This document shows, piece after piece, positions 5,261 through 37,888 of a stretch of DNA of 64,000 nt (positions are counted from its first letter, which is position 1; every line of letters starts with the position of its first letter). A model generated the notes under the pieces. That model did not search any database. It was not told the origin of the DNA and saw nothing but the letters and a program-made list of their open reading frames with translations. This stretch comes from Deltaproteobacteria bacterium (GTDB lineage: Bacteria > Desulfobacterota > GWC2-55-46). A program made the position numbers and the translations under genes. The stretch lies in contig JACOUO010000029.1 in assembly GCA_016177845.1 (NCBI GenBank), forward strand, positions 1-64,000, in the 5' to 3' direction.

Positions 5261-7069
5261 TTAAGCCTTTGCAGGTGCCTCCGCCTTTTTCGGCACAGCA
5301 ATCCTTATAAAAATCTCATCAAGCTGCTTCTGGTCTACTGTTGACGGGGCATCGCTCATAACATCGGTTGCCTTCTGCGTCTTGGGGAAGGCGATGACAT
5401 CCCTGATGGACTCAGAGCCGGTCATGATTGCCATTATCCTATCAAGGCCGAATGCGATACCGCCGTGAGGAGGCGTGCCGTACTTAAGCGCCTCAAGGAG
5501 GAAGCCGAACCTTTCCTGCGCTTCTTCAAGCTTGATGCCAAGTTTCTCAAACACCTTTGCCTGCACATCGCTCCTGTGTATCCTTATGGAGCCGCCGCCA
5601 ATCTCGCTTCCGTTAAGTACAAGGTCATATGCCTTTGCCCTTACCTTGAGCGTGTCTGTATCAAGCTTCTCCAGGTCCTCATCCATGGGCGCGGTGAACG
5701 GGTGATGAACCGCCACATACCTCTTTTCAGCGTCATCATAATCGAGCATGGGGAACTCTGTCACCCAGACAAAGTTGAAGCCTTCTTTGGGTATGAGCCC
5801 AAGCCTGTTGCCGATATTGAGCCTGAGCCTTCCAAGGACAGTATTGGCAATTGATGGCTTATCAGCCGCGAACAGGAGGAGGTCTCCTGTTGAAGCCTCA
5901 AGTATTGTTGCGATATCCTGCCTTTCAACATCGGTCAGGAACTTGGCTATCGGGGATTGCCAGCCCTCTTCTGTTATCTTTACCCACGCAAGGCCTTTGG
6001 CGCCGAAAGACACAGCTATCTCGGTTAAGTCATCAAGGTCTTTCCTTGAAAAACCTGCTCCGCCCTTTACGCAGACCGCCTTTATCACTCCGCCTTTAGC
6101 GGCAGCGTCATTGAACACCTTAAAGCCTGAGCCCTTAAGCATCTCGGTCAAGTCCTTAAGCTCAAGGCCGAACCTGACATCAGGGTTATCAACCCCGAAC
6201 CTGCCAACAGCCTCAGCGTAGGTAAGCCTCGGGAAAGGAGGATTGAGGTCAAGGCCAAGCCCTTCCCTGAATATACGGACAACAAGGCCCTCCATCATCT
6301 TCATTACATCTTCCCTGTCAACAAAGCTCATCTCAGCGTCTATCTGGGTGAACTCGGGCTGGCGGTCAGCTCTGAGGTCTTCGTCCCTGAAGCACTTGAC
6401 TATCTGAAAGTACCTGTCAAAGCCGGATATCATCAGTATCTGCTTAAAGAGCTGCGGAGACTGGGGGAGCGCGTAGAACTGGCCAGGATTGACCCTGCTC
6501 GGAACAAGATAGTCCCTCGCTCCTTCAGGCGTGCTCTTGGTCAGCACCGGCGTTTCTATTTCAAGGAAACCGTTCTCCGTAAGATAGTTTCGTGTTGCCA
6601 TGGCGACCTTGTGCCTTAAGATGAGCTTATTCTGGAGAGGCGCCCTCCTTAAGTCAAGGTAACGGTACTTAAGCCTTGTCATCTCTGCGACATCGGTCTC
6701 ATCCTCTATCATAAAAGGAAGTGTAGCGGCGTCATTTAAAACCCTGAGCTCAGCAACGGCAACTTCCACCTGGCCTGTTTTGAGGTTGGGGTTTTCTGTG
6801 CCCTCAGGCCTCTTCTGGACAATGCCTTTGACAGCCAGCACAAACTCATTCCTTATATCGTGAGCCTTATCATGGACTTCATTGGATGCTTCGGGATTGA
6901 ATACAAGCTGGACGAGGCCGCTGCGGTCCCTTAAATCTACAAAGATAAGCCCTCCGTGATCCCTTCTGCGCTGGACCCATCCCATAAGGATAAGAGTTTG
7001 ACCATTTTGGGCGGATGATACATCTGCGCAGTAACAGCTTCTCCGCCAGCTTCCCATTTTTTCTAACAA
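5261..7069 (-). CDS. aspS: Aspartate--tRNA ligase (probably non-discriminating, Asp/Asn)
   Basis: Class II aminoacyl-tRNA synthetase, 602 aa, the normal length for a bacterial AspRS with a GAD insert. The N-terminal OB fold contains [11 protein letters not shown]; motif 2 is [21 protein letters not shown]; motif 3 is near AFGLDRI; the GAD domain lies around 290-410. The start is a TTG with a strong GGAGGG six nt upstream, which decides it over the ATG four codons later. His38 in RRRDHGG and Gly90 in RPEGTENPN are the residues found in non-discriminating bacterial AspRS, whereas E. coli has Leu and a different residue there. It may therefore also charge tRNA-Asn, needing GatCAB, which is not seen here. 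Confidence 0.95.
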
Positions 7070-29670: not shown

Positions 29671-30972
29671 TTACCTCTTGGGGCCGATCTCAAGACTTCC
29701 CTTGAAATATCCGCCGACATTGTCAAGGGCGCAGAAACTGCCGCACATGGTGCAGGTGTCAGGCTCCTCAGGGCTTCTGCTGCTTCTTATCTCAGAGGCC
29801 TTCTCTCCGAATAAGCCCAAATTGTACTGGTCATCCCATCTTAAGTCCCTGCGGGCCTTTGACATCTCCATGTCCCGTTCCTTTTTGCCGAGCTTTACCA
29901 TATCGCCTACATGGGCGGCTATGCGCGCGGCCCTGACGCCTTCGATTACATCTTCCCTGTTCGGGAGAGCCAGATGTTCGGCAGGAGTTACATAGCATAT
30001 CAGGTCAGCCCCGTACCTTGCGGCCTCAGCCGCGCCTATTGCGGCTGATATATGGTCATATCCCGCCGCGATATCGGTAGTCAAAGGGCCAAGCACATAG
30101 AAAGGCGCGTCTGCGCTCATGCGCTTCTGAAGTTTTACATTGGCCTCTATGTCATCAAGGGGCAGATGTCCCGGGCCTTCGCACATCATCTGGCAGCCCA
30201 TGTCCTGCCCCAGATTGGCAAGTTCGCAGTTTATCAAAAGCTCCTGCACCTGCGCCCTGTCGAGGCTGTCGTGCACCGCGCCTGCCCTGAGCCCATTGCC
30301 AAGGCTTAGGACGCAGTCGTATTTCCTGAATATCTCAACCACCTTGTCGAATTTTTCGTAGAGGGGATTTTCTTTATTGTTCTTGAGCATCCACCCGACC
30401 ATGTAAGACCCGCCCCTTGAGACAAGCCCTCCGTAACGGTAGCCCTGCTTATTGAGCCTTTCAATGGTCAGCCTGTTTATGCCGCAGTGGACTGCCATGA
30501 AAGATATCCCATCAGCGCACTGCCGTTCAATGACATCAAAGAGAAGTTCTTCGGTGAGCTTATTAGGGTCGTGGTACTTCTCTATGGCTTCTTTAAATGC
30601 CTGATAAAGAGGAACGCTCCCAACCGACAGGTTAGTCACGCCAAGCACCTTCTTACGGATAGAGTCGAGGTCTCCCCCGACGGACAGTTCCATCATCGTA
30701 TCCGCGCCAGCCTCTTCAGCGGCAATGGCCTTGCTTATCTCAGCCTCGACATCGATGATGTCGGAAGATGTGCCGATGCTCGCGTTGACCTTTGTCTTAA
30801 GCCCTTTTCCGATTGCCACAAGCCTTGCCTTGCGATTCACATTATTCGGTATTACGGCTTTGCCTTCGGCTATCATCCTCATCAGGTAGTCGGGTGAGAC
30901 ATTGTCATAAACCGCTGCCTCTTTCATCTCACTTGTTATGATACCTTTTCTGGCGGCTTCGATCTGCGTCAT
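29671..30972 (-). CDS. thiC: ThiC-family radical SAM enzyme: probably 5-hydroxybenzimidazole synthase (BzaF), else phosphomethylpyrimidine synthase
   Basis: Radical-SAM enzyme acting on aminoimidazole ribotide, 433 aa, the short ThiC form. The body is typical (MRMIAEGKAVIPNN, MMCEGPGHLPLDDIEANV, CYVTPAEHLALP). The C-terminal iron-sulfur motif is C407-x2-C410-x3-C414; classical proteobacterial ThiC has C-x2-C-x4-C. ThiC makes the thiamine pyrimidine, while the paralogue BzaF makes 5-hydroxybenzimidazole, the precursor of the cobamide lower ligand. Here the gene starts 3 bp after cbiA at the end of a riboswitch-controlled cobalamin operon, and no thiamine gene or TPP riboswitch is near. I therefore favour BzaF, but sequence alone does not settle it. 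Confidence 0.85.
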   Translation of the reverse strand: MTQIEAARKGIITSEMKEAAVYDNVSPDYLMRMIAEGKAVIPNNVNRKARLVAIGKGLKTKVNASIGTSSDIIDVEAEISKAIAAEEAGADTMMELSVGGDLDSIRKKVLGVTNLSVGSVPLYQAFKEAIEKYHDPNKLTEELLFDVIERQCADGISFMAVHCGINRLTIERLNKQGYRYGGLVSRGGSYMVGWMLKNNKENPLYEKFDKVVEIFRKYDCVLSLGNGLRAGAVHDSLDRAQVQELLINCELANLGQDMGCQMMCEGPGHLPLDDIEANVKLQKRMSADAPFYVLGPLTTDIAAGYDHISAAIGAAEAARYGADLICYVTPAEHLALPNREDVIEGVRAARIAAHVGDMVKLGKKERDMEMSKARRDLRWDDQYNLGLFGEKASEIRSSRSPEEPDTCTMCGSFCALDNVGGYFKGSLEIGPKR

Positions 30973-30975
30973 CTT

Positions 30976-32343
30976 TCACCTCTCGGTTTTGAATTTTTTA
31001 CACATATTTACAAATCCGCAGGCAAACCCCGGGTTGCTCGAGAAGTGGAGATGGATATAGCTTGCAAGCGTATTTTTATACAGATAACCTTCCATGAAGT
31101 CATTGCCATCGTGATTGAAGCTGAATACTGTCTTTATATTTTTCGGAACCTTTATAATCTCTGAATAATGGAATTCATGCCCTCTGATTGCCTTTGCCCC
31201 GCCCTCAACGGGAAAGCCTTCGGCAAGAACCTCCCTGTACCCGAGAGCCTTTCTTTTTGAGAGCATCCTTGTACTGAAAGGCAATACCCCGCTCATCTGA
31301 AAAACCTTGCCATCTTTATCAGAAATATTCCTGCCCAGATACATCAATCCACCACACTCGGCATATATGGGCATGCCTTTTTTCGATGCTGACTTTATTT
31401 GTGATTTAAGGCTTAAATTCTCTTCGAGGCTGGACGCGTACAGTTCAGGGTAGCCTCCGCCAAGATATATGCCTGAGGTTCCCTGGGGCAATTGCTTATC
31501 CTTAACAGGGCTGAAAAAGACAAGCTCCGCGCCCAAATTTTTCAATATCTCGAAATTCTCTTCATAGTAAAAACAGAACGCCTTATCAAGGGCTACCGCA
31601 ATCCTTGTTGATTCTTTTCTGTTCTTTTCTTTTTTGACAGGCTCAGCTTTTTGAACAGGCCTTCCTATGAGGGCTTTTATATCGACTGATTTTTCAATGG
31701 CATCTCCTGCGCTCTTTACAAACTGCTTCCACGAGCCGTCCTCAAGCTCTCCTGCCATCACAAGCCCAAGATGCCTCTCAGGCATTGAAAGGGTTAAGTC
31801 TTTAGGAAGATACCCAAGCACCTTTATTTTGGAGCCTTTTGGGATTGAATCTTTTAATATCTGAAAATGACGGGGGCTTCCAACCCTGTTGAATACCACC
31901 CATTTTATATTTACCTTCGGGTCGTACGATTCAAAGCCTTTTATGATTGCGCCTGCGCTCCTTGCGGTCTTCTCAGCATTTACGACAAGAAGGACCGGAA
32001 TATCGAGCAGCTTTGCTATGTGCGCTGTTGAGCCCTCTTCGCTTTTGCCGTCCTTTCCGTCAAAGAGGCCCATCACGCCTTCGATTATGGAAACCTGCGA
32101 ATGGCTGGATTTTTGTAAAAATGTCCTCTTTACGCCCTTTTTGCCCATCATCCATGTATCAAGGTTATATGAGGGCACGCCAAGAAGGGCCCTGTGATAG
32201 CCGGGGTCAATATAGTCAGGGCCTGCCTTGAAAGGCTGGACAGTCAAGCCCCTTCTCCTTAACGCCTCCATCAGGCCAAGCGTAATGACGGTCTTTCCGG
32301 CGCTGCTGTTGGTGCCGGCCACTATGAAGGCAGGGTTCCGCAT
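30976..32343 (-). CDS. cbiA: Cobyrinate a,c-diamide synthase
   Basis: Glutamine- and ATP-dependent amidation of the a and c carboxylates of cobyrinate, 455 aa. The N-terminal P-loop AGTNSSAGKTVITLGLMEAL and DPGYH segment form the synthetase half; the C-terminal class I glutamine amidotransferase half has the nucleophile Cys in PIYAECGGLMYLG and the late HEFHYSE. Its presence implies a de novo corrin ring pathway, not only salvage, although the ring genes (cbi) are not in this window. It follows cobC by 57 bp. Confidence 0.94.
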   Translation of the reverse strand: MRNPAFIVAGTNSSAGKTVITLGLMEALRRRGLTVQPFKAGPDYIDPGYHRALLGVPSYNLDTWMMGKKGVKRTFLQKSSHSQVSIIEGVMGLFDGKDGKSEEGSTAHIAKLLDIPVLLVVNAEKTARSAGAIIKGFESYDPKVNIKWVVFNRVGSPRHFQILKDSIPKGSKIKVLGYLPKDLTLSMPERHLGLVMAGELEDGSWKQFVKSAGDAIEKSVDIKALIGRPVQKAEPVKKEKNRKESTRIAVALDKAFCFYYEENFEILKNLGAELVFFSPVKDKQLPQGTSGIYLGGGYPELYASSLEENLSLKSQIKSASKKGMPIYAECGGLMYLGRNISDKDGKVFQMSGVLPFSTRMLSKRKALGYREVLAEGFPVEGGAKAIRGHEFHYSEIIKVPKNIKTVFSFNHDGNDFMEGYLYKNTLASYIHLHFSSNPGFACGFVNMCKKFKTER

Positions 32344-32400: not shown

Positions 32401-33036
32401 TCAGTATATCTTGTTGATGGAAAAATCCTGGTTCGGCCCGCCGTTTAAAAGCTTCACTACCTGCATGCCGTCATTATAATACTCAATCACATTGAGGCAG
32501 CCGTAGTCCTGCTCGATACGGAAAAAATTCCTTATATCAAGACCAAGCACCTCGCTTAATATGACCCTGTTCACCCCTCCGTGCGCAAGTATGCATATAG
32601 CCTCTCCCCTGTGCCTCTCTATTATTTCAGACAAGGCAGGAACTACCCTTGCCCTCAGGTCAACAAGGCTTTCTCCGCCCTGCACCTTGCTTGTGGCAAG
32701 GTCCTTGAAGCTGAAGTCCGCCTCTTCAGGGTAAAGGGCAGCCGCTTCTTCCCTTGTAAGCCCTTCCCACCTTCCGAGGTGTATCTCCCTTAAAGAGTTG
32801 ACCATTACGGGATTGAGACCAAGCCTGTTGCCGATTATGCGCGCGCCTTTTACAGCCCTTTGCAGGTCGCTTGAATACATTGACTTAATTGGCTCATTGG
32901 CAAGAAAATCCGAGAGCCTGTTCATCTGCTCTACGCCGGTAGGAGTGATATCTACATCAAAATGCCCGTTATACCTGTACTCATGGTGGTTTGCGACCTG
33001 TCCATGCCTGATAAGATAGAGCCTTGTAAATTCCAT
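32401..33036 (-). CDS. cobC: Histidine phosphatase family protein, likely alpha-ribazole/cobalamin phosphatase
   Basis: Phosphoglycerate-mutase-like phosphatase, 211 aa. The phospho-histidine motif LIRHGQVANHHEYRYNG is at the N-terminus, with REIHLGRWEGLT in the middle and the second catalytic His in LAHGGVNRV. CobC removes the phosphate from alpha-ribazole phosphate or from cobalamin 5'-phosphate. The superfamily is broad, and the specific call rests on its place between cobS and cbiA. AGGAG lies upstream of the ATG. Confidence 0.85.
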   Translation of the reverse strand: MEFTRLYLIRHGQVANHHEYRYNGHFDVDITPTGVEQMNRLSDFLANEPIKSMYSSDLQRAVKGARIIGNRLGLNPVMVNSLREIHLGRWEGLTREEAAALYPEEADFSFKDLATSKVQGGESLVDLRARVVPALSEIIERHRGEAICILAHGGVNRVILSEVLGLDIRNFFRIEQDYGCLNVIEYYNDGMQVVKLLNGGPNQDFSINKIY

Positions 33037-33055: not shown

Positions 33056-33811
33056 TTAAAAATCCATCTCGGATAGGTTTGTCAGCGCCAATACCATTAT
33101 TATGAAGAGAACTTCCGCTATTTCACTCTGGAAGCCGAATACATCCCCTGTGACCCCTCCTATCTTTTTCCTGAAAAATCTGGAGAAGAAAAAAACTACC
33201 CCGCCAATCAACAGCAAAAGGAAGAGGGATAAGAGGCCTAATGATAGCGCACAGAGCACCGATGTTATAATCGTTGCCTTGATGAGTGTGGAAGTCTTAT
33301 TGCGGGCAAATGCCGCGCCAAGCCCGCCTGTGCTTCTGGCATAATCCGACCAGCATGCCATCGGCACCATTGCCCAGCGGCCTACTATGGGAAAGAGAAA
33401 GAGTGTAGGCACTTTTACCTCATCGGGCAAATCTCCCAGCGCAAGGAACTTCAAAAGCAGTATCATCACAAGAAAGACTACGCCGATCGCGCCTGTGGCG
33501 CTGTCACGCATAATGCGGAGCCTGTCCTCAGGAGTACTGCCGCCGGCAAGCCCGTCAACCGTATCTGCGAAACCGTCGAGGTGCAGCCCGCCATTTGTCA
33601 GCACCAGTATCAGTACCAAAAGCCCGGTAACGACATTATCAGACAGAAGCCCTGAAAGCATATAATACGAGAGCACAAGTATCAGGCCCTGAAGGGCCCC
33701 GACAAGCGGGAACCATGACATGGAGCCTGCAAGCTCCTCTGTCCTTATCTCTGTATCTCTTTGAACCGGAAAAACTGTCAGGAACTGAAGGGCAAGTATA
33801 AAACTTCTCAT
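33056..33811 (-). CDS. cobS: Adenosylcobinamide-GDP ribazoletransferase (cobalamin synthase)
   Basis: Integral inner-membrane enzyme joining adenosylcobinamide-GDP to alpha-ribazole (phosphate), the last assembly step of the nucleotide loop. 251 aa with about six hydrophobic helices; the acidic active-site motif GGLHLDGFADTVDGLAGG (about 77-94) is intact, and QFLTVFPV at the N-terminus is typical. It lies between cobT and cobC, its substrate-producing and product-processing partners. Confidence 0.94.
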   Translation of the reverse strand: MRSFILALQFLTVFPVQRDTEIRTEELAGSMSWFPLVGALQGLILVLSYYMLSGLLSDNVVTGLLVLILVLTNGGLHLDGFADTVDGLAGGSTPEDRLRIMRDSATGAIGVVFLVMILLLKFLALGDLPDEVKVPTLFLFPIVGRWAMVPMACWSDYARSTGGLGAAFARNKTSTLIKATIITSVLCALSLGLLSLFLLLLIGGVVFFFSRFFRKKIGGVTGDVFGFQSEIAEVLFIIMVLALTNLSEMDF

Positions 33812-33834: not shown

Positions 33835-34890
33835 CTAAATGGTTTTCTCGGATACCCCGGCATCGCCGAATGTAGCCATTTCATTATATATCTTAACCCC
33901 GGCTTCAACAAGCGATATGGCTATTGCCGCACCTGTGCCTTCGCCGAGCCTTAAATCAAGGTCAACAAAGGGCCTGAGCCTCATCCTCTCAAGCATGACC
34001 TTATGCCCGCGCTCAACCGAATTATGGGAGGCAAAGATATAGTCCCGCACCTGCGGTTTAAGCTCATACGCAATAAGCGCGCCCGCAGTCGATATGAAGC
34101 CGTCAACCACTACCGGCACTCTTCTTGAGGCCGCGCCGAGTATAAGCCCTGCGATTCCGGCTATTTCAGTGCCGCCGAGCTTTGCAAGCACATCAATGGG
34201 GTCTGATATGTTAGGTTTATTCACATTCAAGGCGTCTTCTATTACACGCACCTTGTGGTTATAGCTTTTATCGTCAATGCCTGTGCCTTTGCCTGTGACA
34301 TCAGCTACGGGCTGGCCTGAGAAAGCCGCTATTATCGCGCTTGAGGGCGTAGTGTTGGCTATGCCCATCTCTCCTGTGCCGTAGATGACGCCTTCGCCGG
34401 CGTTCTCCAGAGCAAGTTCTATCCCCGCCTCAATGCACTTAATGGCTTCATCCCTTGTCATTGCAGGGCCCTTACGGATGTTGCGCGTGCCCTTCATCAC
34501 CTTTTTCTGGATAAGCCCGGCGCAGTCCGTAAAGTCGTAATCAACTCCTATATCCACTACCTTGACCTCAACTCCTGCATGCCTTGCAAGCACATTTATC
34601 CCTGCCCCGCCCCTTAAAAAGTTAAGCACCATCTGGGGCGTGACTTCCTTCGGGAACGCTGAGACACCTTCATCGGCAACCCCGTGGTCGCCCGCGAATG
34701 TAAAGATTATCTTTTTATTGATTCCGGGTGTCAGATTTCCTGTTATGGCTACCATCTTCTTTGCGAACTCTTCAAGCCTGCCAAGGCTGTCTTTGGGCTT
34801 TGTAAGCATGTCAAGGCGGGCCTGCGCCTTATCAAGAAGCTCCGGGTCAATGGATGCTATACTTTTTAGTGCCTCATCAAGTCTGGACAT
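33835..34890 (-). CDS. cobT: Nicotinate-nucleotide--dimethylbenzimidazole phosphoribosyltransferase
   Basis: Activates the lower-ligand base to its alpha-riboside phosphate using nicotinate mononucleotide. 351 aa, standard length. Conserved stretches are [60 protein letters not shown], and the C-terminal [15 protein letters not shown] with the catalytic Glu nearby. CobT homologues accept several benzimidazoles and phenolics, so the actual base is not fixed by the sequence. The next gene starts after 3 bp. Confidence 0.95.
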
Positions 34891-34893
34891 AAC

Positions 34894-35373
34894 CTAAATC
34901 CCTCCCTGCGCCTTTGCGTAAGTTTTAGAAGCTATGAGGTTGCCGATGTAGCCGCCGATGGCTGATGCCGCAAGCATCAATATGAGATACATTGCCTTGT
35001 CAGGCTCTCCCATTGATTTTACCCAGAATAGAATGCCCAGCGGGGCCGCCACTGTCAATGCCCACACAGAACCCATGAACTTTTGCCTTGAGGCTATTAT
35101 AAGACCTACTATTATGCCTAAAATAAGGCTTACCGAAGGGGTGATGACGATATTTGAAAACCGTGTGGCCTCGGGAAGCATCTGTTCGAATACTCCCTTA
35201 TTTGCCTCAATGAATGCCTTGGCCTCATCAGGCTTTCTGCCTTTAAAGAAGGTGGATACAAACCTGCCGTAAGCGGTGATCTTAAGTGAAGTCAGCGCCC
35301 ATGTGATAAATCCGTAAATGGCTATGAATGCCACATAGCCTGTCAAAAATGCCGCAAAGATCCTTTTTTTCAT
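34894..35373 (-). CDS. Unknown four-helix membrane protein in the cobalamin operon
   Basis: A 159-aa protein I do not recognise. Hydrophobic segments lie at about 7-28, 75-94, 101-118 and 128-148, with a hydrophilic loop of about 45 residues (KGRKPDEAKAFIEANKGVFE) between the first and second. It is placed between cobU and cobT, with only 3 bp to cobT and 26 bp to cobU, so it is co-transcribed and under the cobalamin riboswitch. CobS is a membrane enzyme, so a scaffold role or a corrinoid/precursor transport role is conceivable, but nothing in the sequence proves either. Confidence 0.8.
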   Translation of the reverse strand: MKKRIFAAFLTGYVAFIAIYGFITWALTSLKITAYGRFVSTFFKGRKPDEAKAFIEANKGVFEQMLPEATRFSNIVITPSVSLILGIIVGLIIASRQKFMGSVWALTVAAPLGILFWVKSMGEPDKAMYLILMLAASAIGGYIGNLIASKTYAKAQGGI

Positions 35374-35399: not shown

Positions 35400-35912
35400 C
35401 TACTTCATTTTAAGGGGAATGCCGGCTGCCACGAAATACACCTCATCCGCGCTTTCTGCAAGAAGCTGGTTTACCTTGCCTGACAAGTCCCTGAACCTTC
35501 TTGCCAAAGGATTATCAGGCACAATGCCCTGCCCCACTTCATTTGATACGATTACTATATTTGCCGCTGACTGCCTGCATGCAGATGAAAGGTCAGCCGC
35601 CTTTGATATGATTTCACTGTCTTTTAAATCCGCGCCCATGAGGTTTGTGAGCCACAGCGTTACGCAGTCAACGAGCGCCACACCGCTTCCTGCCTTTTTA
35701 ATGGTTGCGGCAACTTCAAGAGGCTCTTCGAATGTATGCCACTGTTCGCTCCTTTCATCCTTATGGTTCCTTATCCGCTCTTCCATCTCAGCATCATAGG
35801 CCTGCGCGGTAGCGATATAGGTCTTTGTGCCTTCCATGCCATCCGCAAGCGTCAGGGCAAACGCGCTCTTGCCGCTCCTTGCCCCTCCTATGATGAAAAA
35901 GGTTTTGCCCAT
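35400..35912 (-). CDS. cobU: Adenosylcobinamide kinase / adenosylcobinamide-phosphate guanylyltransferase
   Basis: Bifunctional enzyme that phosphorylates adenosylcobinamide and adds GMP, making adenosylcobinamide-GDP. 170 aa. P-loop FIIGGARSGKSAFAL at the N-terminus, the guanylylation region RIRNHKDERSEQWHTFEEP containing the conserved His, and VSNEVGQGIVPDNPLARRFRD near the C-terminus are all intact. It lies 3 bp after cobO. Confidence 0.95.
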   Translation of the reverse strand: MGKTFFIIGGARSGKSAFALTLADGMEGTKTYIATAQAYDAEMEERIRNHKDERSEQWHTFEEPLEVAATIKKAGSGVALVDCVTLWLTNLMGADLKDSEIISKAADLSSACRQSAANIVIVSNEVGQGIVPDNPLARRFRDLSGKVNQLLAESADEVYFVAAGIPLKMK

Positions 35913-35915
35913 TGG

Positions 35916-36449
35916 TTAGAACTCTATGCCTTTACGCGCCGGTGTCCCGTGATCGTAGGGGTGTTTTATCTTCAGCATCTCTGTTACATAATCGGCAATC
36001 TTGACCAATTCAAAGGGAGCGTTCCTGCCTGTCAAAACCACTTCCAGGTGAGGCGGCCTGTTATTAAGAAAATCTATCAGGTCGCTTTCAGCTATCCAGC
36101 CGCCGTTTATGGCTGACATGATCTCATCCAGTACAAGGAGGTCAACCCCTCCCTCGTTCGCCTTTTTCCTGGCAAGTTCATATGTGTCCTGAACAGACTT
36201 TTTTACGAACGAAAGGTCGGTATTGCCCTTTGTGAATATCGGATGCCTGCAGTTTGACCTGACAAGCTCTATATTATAATTGGAATTTTTAAAGAACTCC
36301 TTTTCGCCCGACGGAGAGCTGTCTTCCTTGAAGAATTGGACAAAGAGTACCTTAAAGCCCTGGCCCGCTGCCCTTGCCGCAAGCCCGACCGCAGAGGTGG
36401 TCTTCCCCTTGCCTTCCCCTGTATAGATGTGTACGAGTCCTGTTTTCAT
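35916..36449 (-). CDS. cobO: Corrinoid adenosyltransferase (CobO/BtuR type)
   Basis: Adds the 5'-deoxyadenosyl group from ATP to the cobalt of reduced corrinoids. 177 aa. P-loop HIYTGEGKGKTTSAVGLAARA at the N-terminus, LLVLDEIMSAINGGW (Walker B-like) and VLTGRNAP near the end are diagnostic. I use the ATG at 36449, which gives the family-typical start MKTGLVHIYTG; a GTG lies four codons upstream. It is the first gene of the cobalamin operon, after the riboswitch and its terminator. Confidence 0.94.
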   Translation of the reverse strand: MKTGLVHIYTGEGKGKTTSAVGLAARAAGQGFKVLFVQFFKEDSSPSGEKEFFKNSNYNIELVRSNCRHPIFTKGNTDLSFVKKSVQDTYELARKKANEGGVDLLVLDEIMSAINGGWIAESDLIDFLNNRPPHLEVVLTGRNAPFELVKIADYVTEMLKIKHPYDHGTPARKGIEF

Positions 36450-36513
36450 AAGATAACCCACTCTACTTTGATTTAACTCTCTTTAATATGAAAAATGTCA
36501 TGGGAGGGAGAAA

Positions 36514-36929: not shown

Positions 36930-37709
36930 CTATAAAAATTTCTTTATCGCCTGTATTGCCCGCCTCATCATTTCCTCTCCGTGAGGCTCTATAGTGTAAA
37001 CGGGGTTATTGCCGTATTTCTTTAAAAGAGTAAAAAAGAGCTTGAAATCTATGGCACCCTCGCCCAATGGCAGGTGCTCGTCATTTTTGCCGTGGTTATC
37101 GTGGAGATGCACCTCGGCTATCCTGTCTCCCAATAGCTCGAACCAATCCTCTATGTCCACTTTGGAGAATACATTAAGATGGCCGGAATCTATGCAGATG
37201 CCGAAGTTCGGGGACTCAACGGCCTCCATGAGCGCTGCAAGCGCATCAGGTGTCCTGTCGAATATATTTTCAACCGCTATTACGGTGCCATACTCCTCAG
37301 CCCTTTTGACGAACTCAGGCCATGTCTTTAAGCTCTGCTCAAGCCACAGGCCGATATTCCCGTGGAATTTCTTTTCGTTATAACCGCCGTGCAGGACGAC
37401 ATTTTTTGGCCTCAGGTACTTTATCGCGTCAAAGACCTGCCTGTACCTGTCAGCTGTCGAACGCCTTTTTTCTTCATTGGCGCTTCCCGGATTAAGGTCG
37501 ATATACGGGCCGTGCATGGTAACGGTAAGCCCGTTTGAAGCGAACTCGTTTTTTATCTCTTCCAAATCCTCCGGCGCCGCGCTCTCAAGGTGAGAGCTGT
37601 CCATATAGACCTCAGGGTTTATCTTCTCGTCCCTGAAGAACTCAAGCCTCTCCAGAAGAACCGGATAAGGCACATGCACCTGAACCTTTTTCGAAGCCTC
37701 GCTGCCCAT
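36930..37709 (-). CDS. Sugar phosphate isomerase/epimerase-like TIM-barrel protein (AP endonuclease 2 superfamily), possibly CbiR
   Basis: A 259-aa xylose-isomerase-like barrel (ATG at 37709 gives MGSEASKKVQVHVPY; an upstream start adds 14 basic residues). Metal-site segments of the superfamily are visible: MHGPYIDLNPGS, VLHGGYNEKK, VIAVENIF (metal-binding Glu), ICIDSGHLN, and VHLHDNHGKNDEHLPLGEG. Members act on sugars, damaged DNA or, in the case of CbiR, on cobamides, cutting them to cobinamide phosphate for remodelling. It sits directly upstream of the cobalamin riboswitch on the same strand, which makes CbiR worth testing, but it is not under the riboswitch. Specific function unproven. 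Confidence 0.8.
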   Translation of the reverse strand: MGSEASKKVQVHVPYPVLLERLEFFRDEKINPEVYMDSSHLESAAPEDLEEIKNEFASNGLTVTMHGPYIDLNPGSANEEKRRSTADRYRQVFDAIKYLRPKNVVLHGGYNEKKFHGNIGLWLEQSLKTWPEFVKRAEEYGTVIAVENIFDRTPDALAALMEAVESPNFGICIDSGHLNVFSKVDIEDWFELLGDRIAEVHLHDNHGKNDEHLPLGEGAIDFKLFFTLLKKYGNNPVYTIEPHGEEMMRRAIQAIKKFL

Positions 37710-37888
37710 TATTTTAGCCCTGTTTTTTTTGACATTAAACCTGAATACCACGGTCGATTCAAGCGAAATATGGAAAGAGACCGCTCAGTGACATCGGTTT
37801 TTATTCTGCTATACTTTTTAATATAACTTCAGAAAAGCCGTTTTCACCTTCAAACCTCCGCATTAACCCCAAATCAAAGAGGTAACTT

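Follow-up and report, generated by a model that had tools for sequence, protein, structure and literature searches.

The final steps of vitamin B12 (cobamide) assembly are carried out at the membrane, and the reason for this location is stated as an unanswered question in PMC8092220. The same text proposes a membrane-anchored cobamide complex, possibly with further members. CobS and CbiB, both integral membrane proteins, are enzymes of nucleotide-loop assembly. According to another report, overproduction of CobS dissipates the proton motive force in Escherichia coli, and CobC or PspA rescues the cells (PMC8749415). In a separate field, a third source describes immunity to channel-forming toxins as being provided by polytopic membrane proteins in almost all cases (PMC12744356). 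Within the literature searched, no description of a membrane protein between cobU and cobT was found. The locus described here encodes such a protein, termed X, which shares an operon with CobS and, unlike CobS and CbiB, has no candidate catalytic residues.

Operon context

The window, meaning the whole 64,000-nucleotide stretch of DNA that was analysed, contains a cobalamin operon whose minus-strand order is riboswitch, cobO, cobU, X, cobT, cobS, cobC, cbiA, a ThiC-type gene and comM. The initial annotation had proposed X as a four-helix membrane protein inside this operon, 26 bp from cobU and 3 bp from cobT, under riboswitch control and resembling no cobalamin protein. Each of these points was borne out: the open reading frame, the hydropathy profile and the AlphaFold2 model agree, the spacing and the aptamer were recovered, and, for X together with 16 orthologues, Pfam and NCBIfam listed none of the CobS, CbiB and CbiM families. 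The features are as follows.

36930-37751, minus strand: CbiR-like TIM barrel, preceding the riboswitch (NF041277, 92.5 bits, cut-off 105; PF01261)
36846-36659, minus strand: cobalamin riboswitch aptamer RF00174, preceding the operon (113.6 bits)
36546-36520, minus strand: terminator-like hairpin in the interval between aptamer and cobO (10-pair stem and T run; consensus match only)
35916-36461, minus strand: cobO (cobA-type) corrinoid adenosyltransferase (TIGR00708, 150.8 bits, below the cut-off of 167.75)
35400-35912, minus strand: cobU, 26 bp upstream of X (NF004469, over cut-off)
34894-35373, minus strand: X, four-helix membrane protein of 159 amino acids, ATG start (open reading frame, hydropathy, AlphaFold2)
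33835-34890, minus strand: cobT, 3 bp downstream of X (TIGR03160, over cut-off)
33056-33811, minus strand: cobS, membrane cobamide synthase, two genes downstream of X (TIGR00317, over cut-off)
32401-33036, minus strand: cobC-type alpha-ribazole phosphatase (TIGR03162, 148.2 bits, below the cut-off of 162.9)
30976-32343, minus strand: cbiA/cobB cobyrinic acid a,c-diamide synthase (NF002204, over cut-off)
29671-30972, minus strand: ThiC-type enzyme at the operon end (NF009895 and TIGR00190, over cut-off)

The cobO and cobC matches are clear, though under their cut-offs. The hairpin ahead of cobO is probably the riboswitch attenuator; it comes from a scan that yields a similar number of sites when the sequence is shuffled, and the same scan detected no terminator-like hairpin on the minus strand between cobU and cobT. 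A GGAGGG in the last codons of X resembles a ribosome-binding site for cobT. The ThiC-type enzyme falls below the cut-off of the BzaB model (541 of 700 bits) and may be either ThiC itself or an enzyme that makes a lower ligand, such as BzaF. Upstream of the riboswitch, the CbiR-like gene suggests cobamide remodelling; none of 59 genomes reaches the CbiR cut-off, so this gene may represent a divergent subgroup. A tie between X and either the ThiC-type or the CbiR-like gene was rejected, as both occur with and without X.

Distribution and inheritance

Of 58 further genomes searched as relatives, 18 carry an orthologue of X (19 of 59 when its own genome is included), all in one order. The profile search gave strong matches in the same order only, in 19 of its 48 genomes, a tally that leaves out a twentieth (G005) matching only through a short three-helix protein. 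A phylum-wide sample of 395 genomes yielded matches in six, all within the order, and neither viral contigs nor plasmids contained relatives. The GTDB genome collection was scanned with exact peptide patterns taken from one protein, which returned one relative among 190 matched stretches, so that absence of X outside the phylum is poorly tested.

The position of X is highly regular. It adjoins cobU in all 18 relatives and cobT in 17, the remaining contig ending inside X, and its site within the operon is fixed across four families of the order. The unrelated gene comM likewise stays beside the operon in most X-bearing genomes, and a stable position alone is therefore no proof of shared function. 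The proposed tie to nucleotide-loop assembly holds with respect to location, as every orthologue sits at the same place, but not with respect to need: 19 genomes of the order keep cobU beside cobT and are missing X, the gap between the edges of the cobU and cobT BLAST matches being below 70 bp in 16 of them. Since these relatives manage the pathway without it, X is an accessory component rather than a core enzyme and is unlikely to catalyze a core step. CbiM, CbiB and CbiC are present in 17, 15 and 18, respectively, of the 19 X-bearing genomes and in many genomes without X. These genes do not tell the two groups apart, and replacement of a missing cobalamin enzyme or cobalt importer by X was rejected as a general explanation. 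One orthologue (L036, from genome G036) bears a long His/Asp-rich C-terminal tail of metal-binding type; CbiM was not found in that genome, and cobalt handling is possible in this lineage.

X is under purifying selection, with dN/dS of 0.08-0.20 in six close pairs of orthologues, compared to 0.14-0.20 for cobU, 0.07-0.13 for cobT and 0.08-0.18 for cobS. These values, together with the orthologues in 18 further genomes, establish X as a real gene and rule out a chance open reading frame. It is less conserved than its operon neighbours. An overlap of X with cobT (a negative gap) is seen in 11 of 18 loci under automatic start choice, with two starts unsure. The X and cobT trees agree broadly and share the same supported groups. 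When presence of X is placed as a label on the cobT tree, nine changes are needed, three of which well-supported branches make unavoidable; a count this low was reached in 10 of 500 shuffles. The agreement of the trees and the label changes point to early presence and repeated loss: most likely, X was in the order from early on and was then lost several times, several gains via transfer of an operon segment being a conceivable alternative.

Predicted structure and conserved residues

Structural features were derived from an alignment of 17 of the 19 X sequences, without those of G009 and G017, the latter being truncated. The AlphaFold2 model built on these 17 rows (mean pLDDT 91, pTM 0.83) has helices at residues 2-30, 34-42, 48-57, 59-93, 100-119 and 126-157, and the four hydropathy maxima at residues 14, 84, 109 and 139 correspond to four membrane helices. 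Mean counts of Lys plus Arg against Asp plus Glu over the 17 sequences are 2.8/0.4 for the N terminus, 6.7/5.8 for the long segment after helix 1, 2.2/0.2 for the loop between helices 2 and 3, 1.8/1.4 for the last loop and 2.9/2.8 for the C terminus. This charge distribution favours a topology with both termini inside and the long segment outside.

The invariant residues are R4, Y35, G36, F38, F42, G45, R46, A69, F72, P79, G86, G90, P111, G140 and G144, which include two GxxxG motifs (G86xxxG90 and G140xxxG144). No acidic, His or Cys residue is found among them. Position 119 is Lys or Arg in 17 of 17 sequences, and the helices contain no conserved ionisable residue, nor is there a conserved metal ligand. 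The pattern of conservation suggests a role in helix packing rather than in transport.

Comparison with known families and folds

X reaches the cut-off of no Pfam or NCBIfam family. The membrane families SCO4225/DUF7942 and DUF3792 match weakly and over the last three helices only, leaving helix 1 and the outer segment uncovered; for X of the window the scores are 17.2, 16.3 and 15.9 bits for SCO4225, DUF7942 and DUF3792 (cut-offs 33, 26.7 and 31.3), and the best E-values among the 17 aligned sequences are 0.00032, 2.8e-05 and 0.015. ECF S components (MptD-type Trep_Strep) stayed under cut-off, with a best E-value of 0.0027 and matches in three of the 17 sequences, and are outside the two families listed for X of the window. 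Foldseek returned no match to the X model at E≤0.001. The best VIA-align hit was LptG, with Z 6.3 and an rmsd of 5.6 over 138 residues, a Z within the range of common helical arrangements and too low for naming a fold. An ABC-exporter-like fold (LptG, MacB, LolC/E) was not adopted, given the middling Z, about 8-12% identity and an operon without an ABC ATPase.

Distant relatives behind RHS genes

Outside the order, the class search returned one match, a weak (28 bits) and nearly full-length one in genome G050. This relative (L131:4681-5079) is a protein of 132 amino acids encoded 4 bp behind a 1358-residue RHS/YD-repeat open reading frame. A search of the 395 genomes with a profile that included the G050 protein gave two more relatives outside the order, in G137 (L140:4978-5361) and G310 (L141:3473-3922), which lie 16-17 bp behind open reading frames called RHS by Pfam. 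With an HMM built from X sequences only, the scores were 32.7 bits for G050, 30.1 for G310 and 13.1 for G137, so that the link to G137 rests mainly on G050. Among 363 hydrophobic decoy frames the best unrelated one, a CobS, scored 10.4 bits, a ceiling that sets aside short three-helix proteins (20-25 bits). In hhalign, X against the RHS-linked trio scored 66.1, compared to at most 20.3 in 100 hydropathy-preserving shuffles. The initial annotation had treated homologues without a link to cobalamin genes as evidence against a cobalamin role. All three distant relatives outside the order are of this kind, whereas the orthologues are all in the operon.

The RHS-linked proteins share with X the arrangement of one helix, an outer segment and then three helices, as well as a PYGxF-like motif following helix 1, of which all three keep PF; the GxxxG of helix 2 is kept in G050. 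They differ from X in being shorter (127-149 amino acids) and in standing behind RHS rather than cobalamin genes, and in G050 and G137 much of the FFKGR part of the outer segment is missing. The three RHS proteins have a Cys-rich C-terminal domain in common.

L131:5087-5323: Cys-rich C-terminal domain of the first RHS protein
L140:4679-4957: Cys-rich C-terminal domain of the second RHS protein
L141:3942-4190: Cys-rich C-terminal domain of the third RHS protein

Eight invariant cysteines form a mirrored pattern in this domain, C-x2-C-x6-C-x6-C ... C-x6-C-x6-C-x2-C, which would suit a stapled helical hairpin; AlphaFold2 predicts three helices at moderate confidence (pLDDT 76). A Pfam scan of the RHS proteins placed no family within the domain. 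Searching the 395 genomes with it gave two strong matches, both at loci already known from the profile search, and none in the six X-bearing genomes of that sample. The domain was not found in viral contigs or plasmids, nor the G050 protein in plasmids. Two weak matches were treated as chance, one in G184 to a short secreted-looking Cys protein that is not RHS and lacks an X-like neighbour, the other in G127 to a frame containing stops. Immunity proteins are usually encoded directly behind such toxin-like genes, and the Cys-rich domain with its adjacent four-helix protein is a candidate for a new toxin-immunity pair. With just three loci, two of which turned up in both searches, the pairing is a lead rather than a statistic. 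The relatives of X draw attention to a C-terminal domain of RHS proteins and the membrane protein paired with it, and their kinship with X suggests a route leading from conflict systems into vitamin metabolism.

Possible functions of X

Long residence in the B12 operon, loss without loss of the pathway and kinship with RHS-linked proteins make X probably a membrane helper. Taken together, the toxicity of CobS, the polytopic nature of immunity proteins to channel-forming toxins, the dispensability of X and its packing residues favour an accessory and perhaps protective partner of CobS as the reading with the best support. X is accordingly viewed, tentatively, as a membrane subunit of late cobamide assembly that has an accessory, non-catalytic role, works with CobS and was co-opted early from the RHS-linked family. 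Its place beside cobU and cobT, the overlap with cobT, the agreement of the trees, the low dN/dS, the glycine motifs and the RHS-linked homology count in favour of this role, and its absence from many relatives that keep cobS and the nine label changes on the cobT tree count against it. A small four-helix membrane protein of the kind found beside RHS/YD-repeat genes would have been co-opted early in one order. Under scarcity of cobamide the riboswitch would open the operon, and X would be translated together with CobT. It would insert with both termini on the inner side and a folded segment of about 45 residues outside, pack via its glycine-motif helices against CobS (or itself), and help to anchor the CobU-CobT-CobS-CobC machinery to the membrane as a tight assembly. 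X may be an extra part of the proposed B12 membrane complex. As it is small, conserved, riboswitch-controlled and dispensable, a defined enzyme set can be assembled with X or without it, which makes the question of membrane location testable.

The same homology could be read differently. X may be an orphan immunity protein against the RHS-type toxins of competitors, carried in the operon under the riboswitch promoter and with no part in cobamide metabolism. Each of the three distant relatives outside the order directly follows an RHS gene whose product carries the same type of Cys-rich C-terminal domain, and X resembles defence genes in being less conserved than its neighbours and often absent. 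This reading is nonetheless rather unlikely: X occupies one fixed operon site in four families, is inherited largely vertically and overlaps cobT, the RHS domain is missing from the six X-bearing genomes among the 395, and expression of an immunity protein only at low cobamide would make little sense. More doubtful still is a domesticated, immunity-like safety partner, encoded on the same riboswitch-controlled message, that stops proton leak or depolarisation by CobS. Many relatives have cobS without X, although X has homology to an RHS-linked membrane family, excess CobS depolarises E. coli (PMC8749415), and polytopic membrane proteins confer immunity to channel-forming toxins in almost all cases (PMC12744356). 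If true, such a safety partner would help to explain how late B12 synthesis proceeds safely in the membrane; we regard it as improbable.

Riboswitch-controlled operons often contain transporters, and the initial annotation had considered one for X. Oligomers of X acting as a small transporter or channel, whose substrate could be a corrinoid, a lower-ligand base, alpha-ribazole or cobalt, would agree with the conserved basic residue at position 119 (17 of 17), the invariant R46 and, in G036, the His/Asp-rich tail of the orthologue alongside the missing CbiM. However, no conserved ionisable residue lies inside the helices and no metal ligand is conserved, CbiM is already present in 17 of the 19 X-bearing genomes, CbiM, CbiB and CbiC accompany X and occur without it, X of the window scores under the cut-off of every transporter family, and its model drew no clear match in the Foldseek and VIA-align comparisons. 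A transport function is thus not favoured, and we consider it unlikely.

Related three-helix proteins and other genes in the cobU-cobT interval

A conserved three-helix protein of 85-90 amino acids (L045, at about 303458-303694 of contig C18 in G000, as well as L044 and L123-L128) aligns with the last three helices of X, with an hhalign score of 45.6, where 100 shuffles reached no more than 20.8. It differs from X in lacking the first helix, the outer segment and any cobalamin or RHS link, and it shows no similarity to the RHS-linked trio (score 12.3). Neither of two members scanned contained a Pfam or NCBIfam family over cut-off. The protein adjoins a DciA-like gene, named by eye.

Other open reading frames are found near cobT in relatives. 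A flavin-reductase-like frame, recognized by eye, lies just upstream of cobT in L096 (G048) and L100 (G058), and in G048 it falls between cobU and cobT. At L103 (G056), from another family of the class, a hydrophobic and unrelated-looking frame of about 170 codons (around 5441-5959, oriented to cobT) occupies the interval between cobU and cobT, so that the slot may have taken up a membrane protein on two separate occasions.
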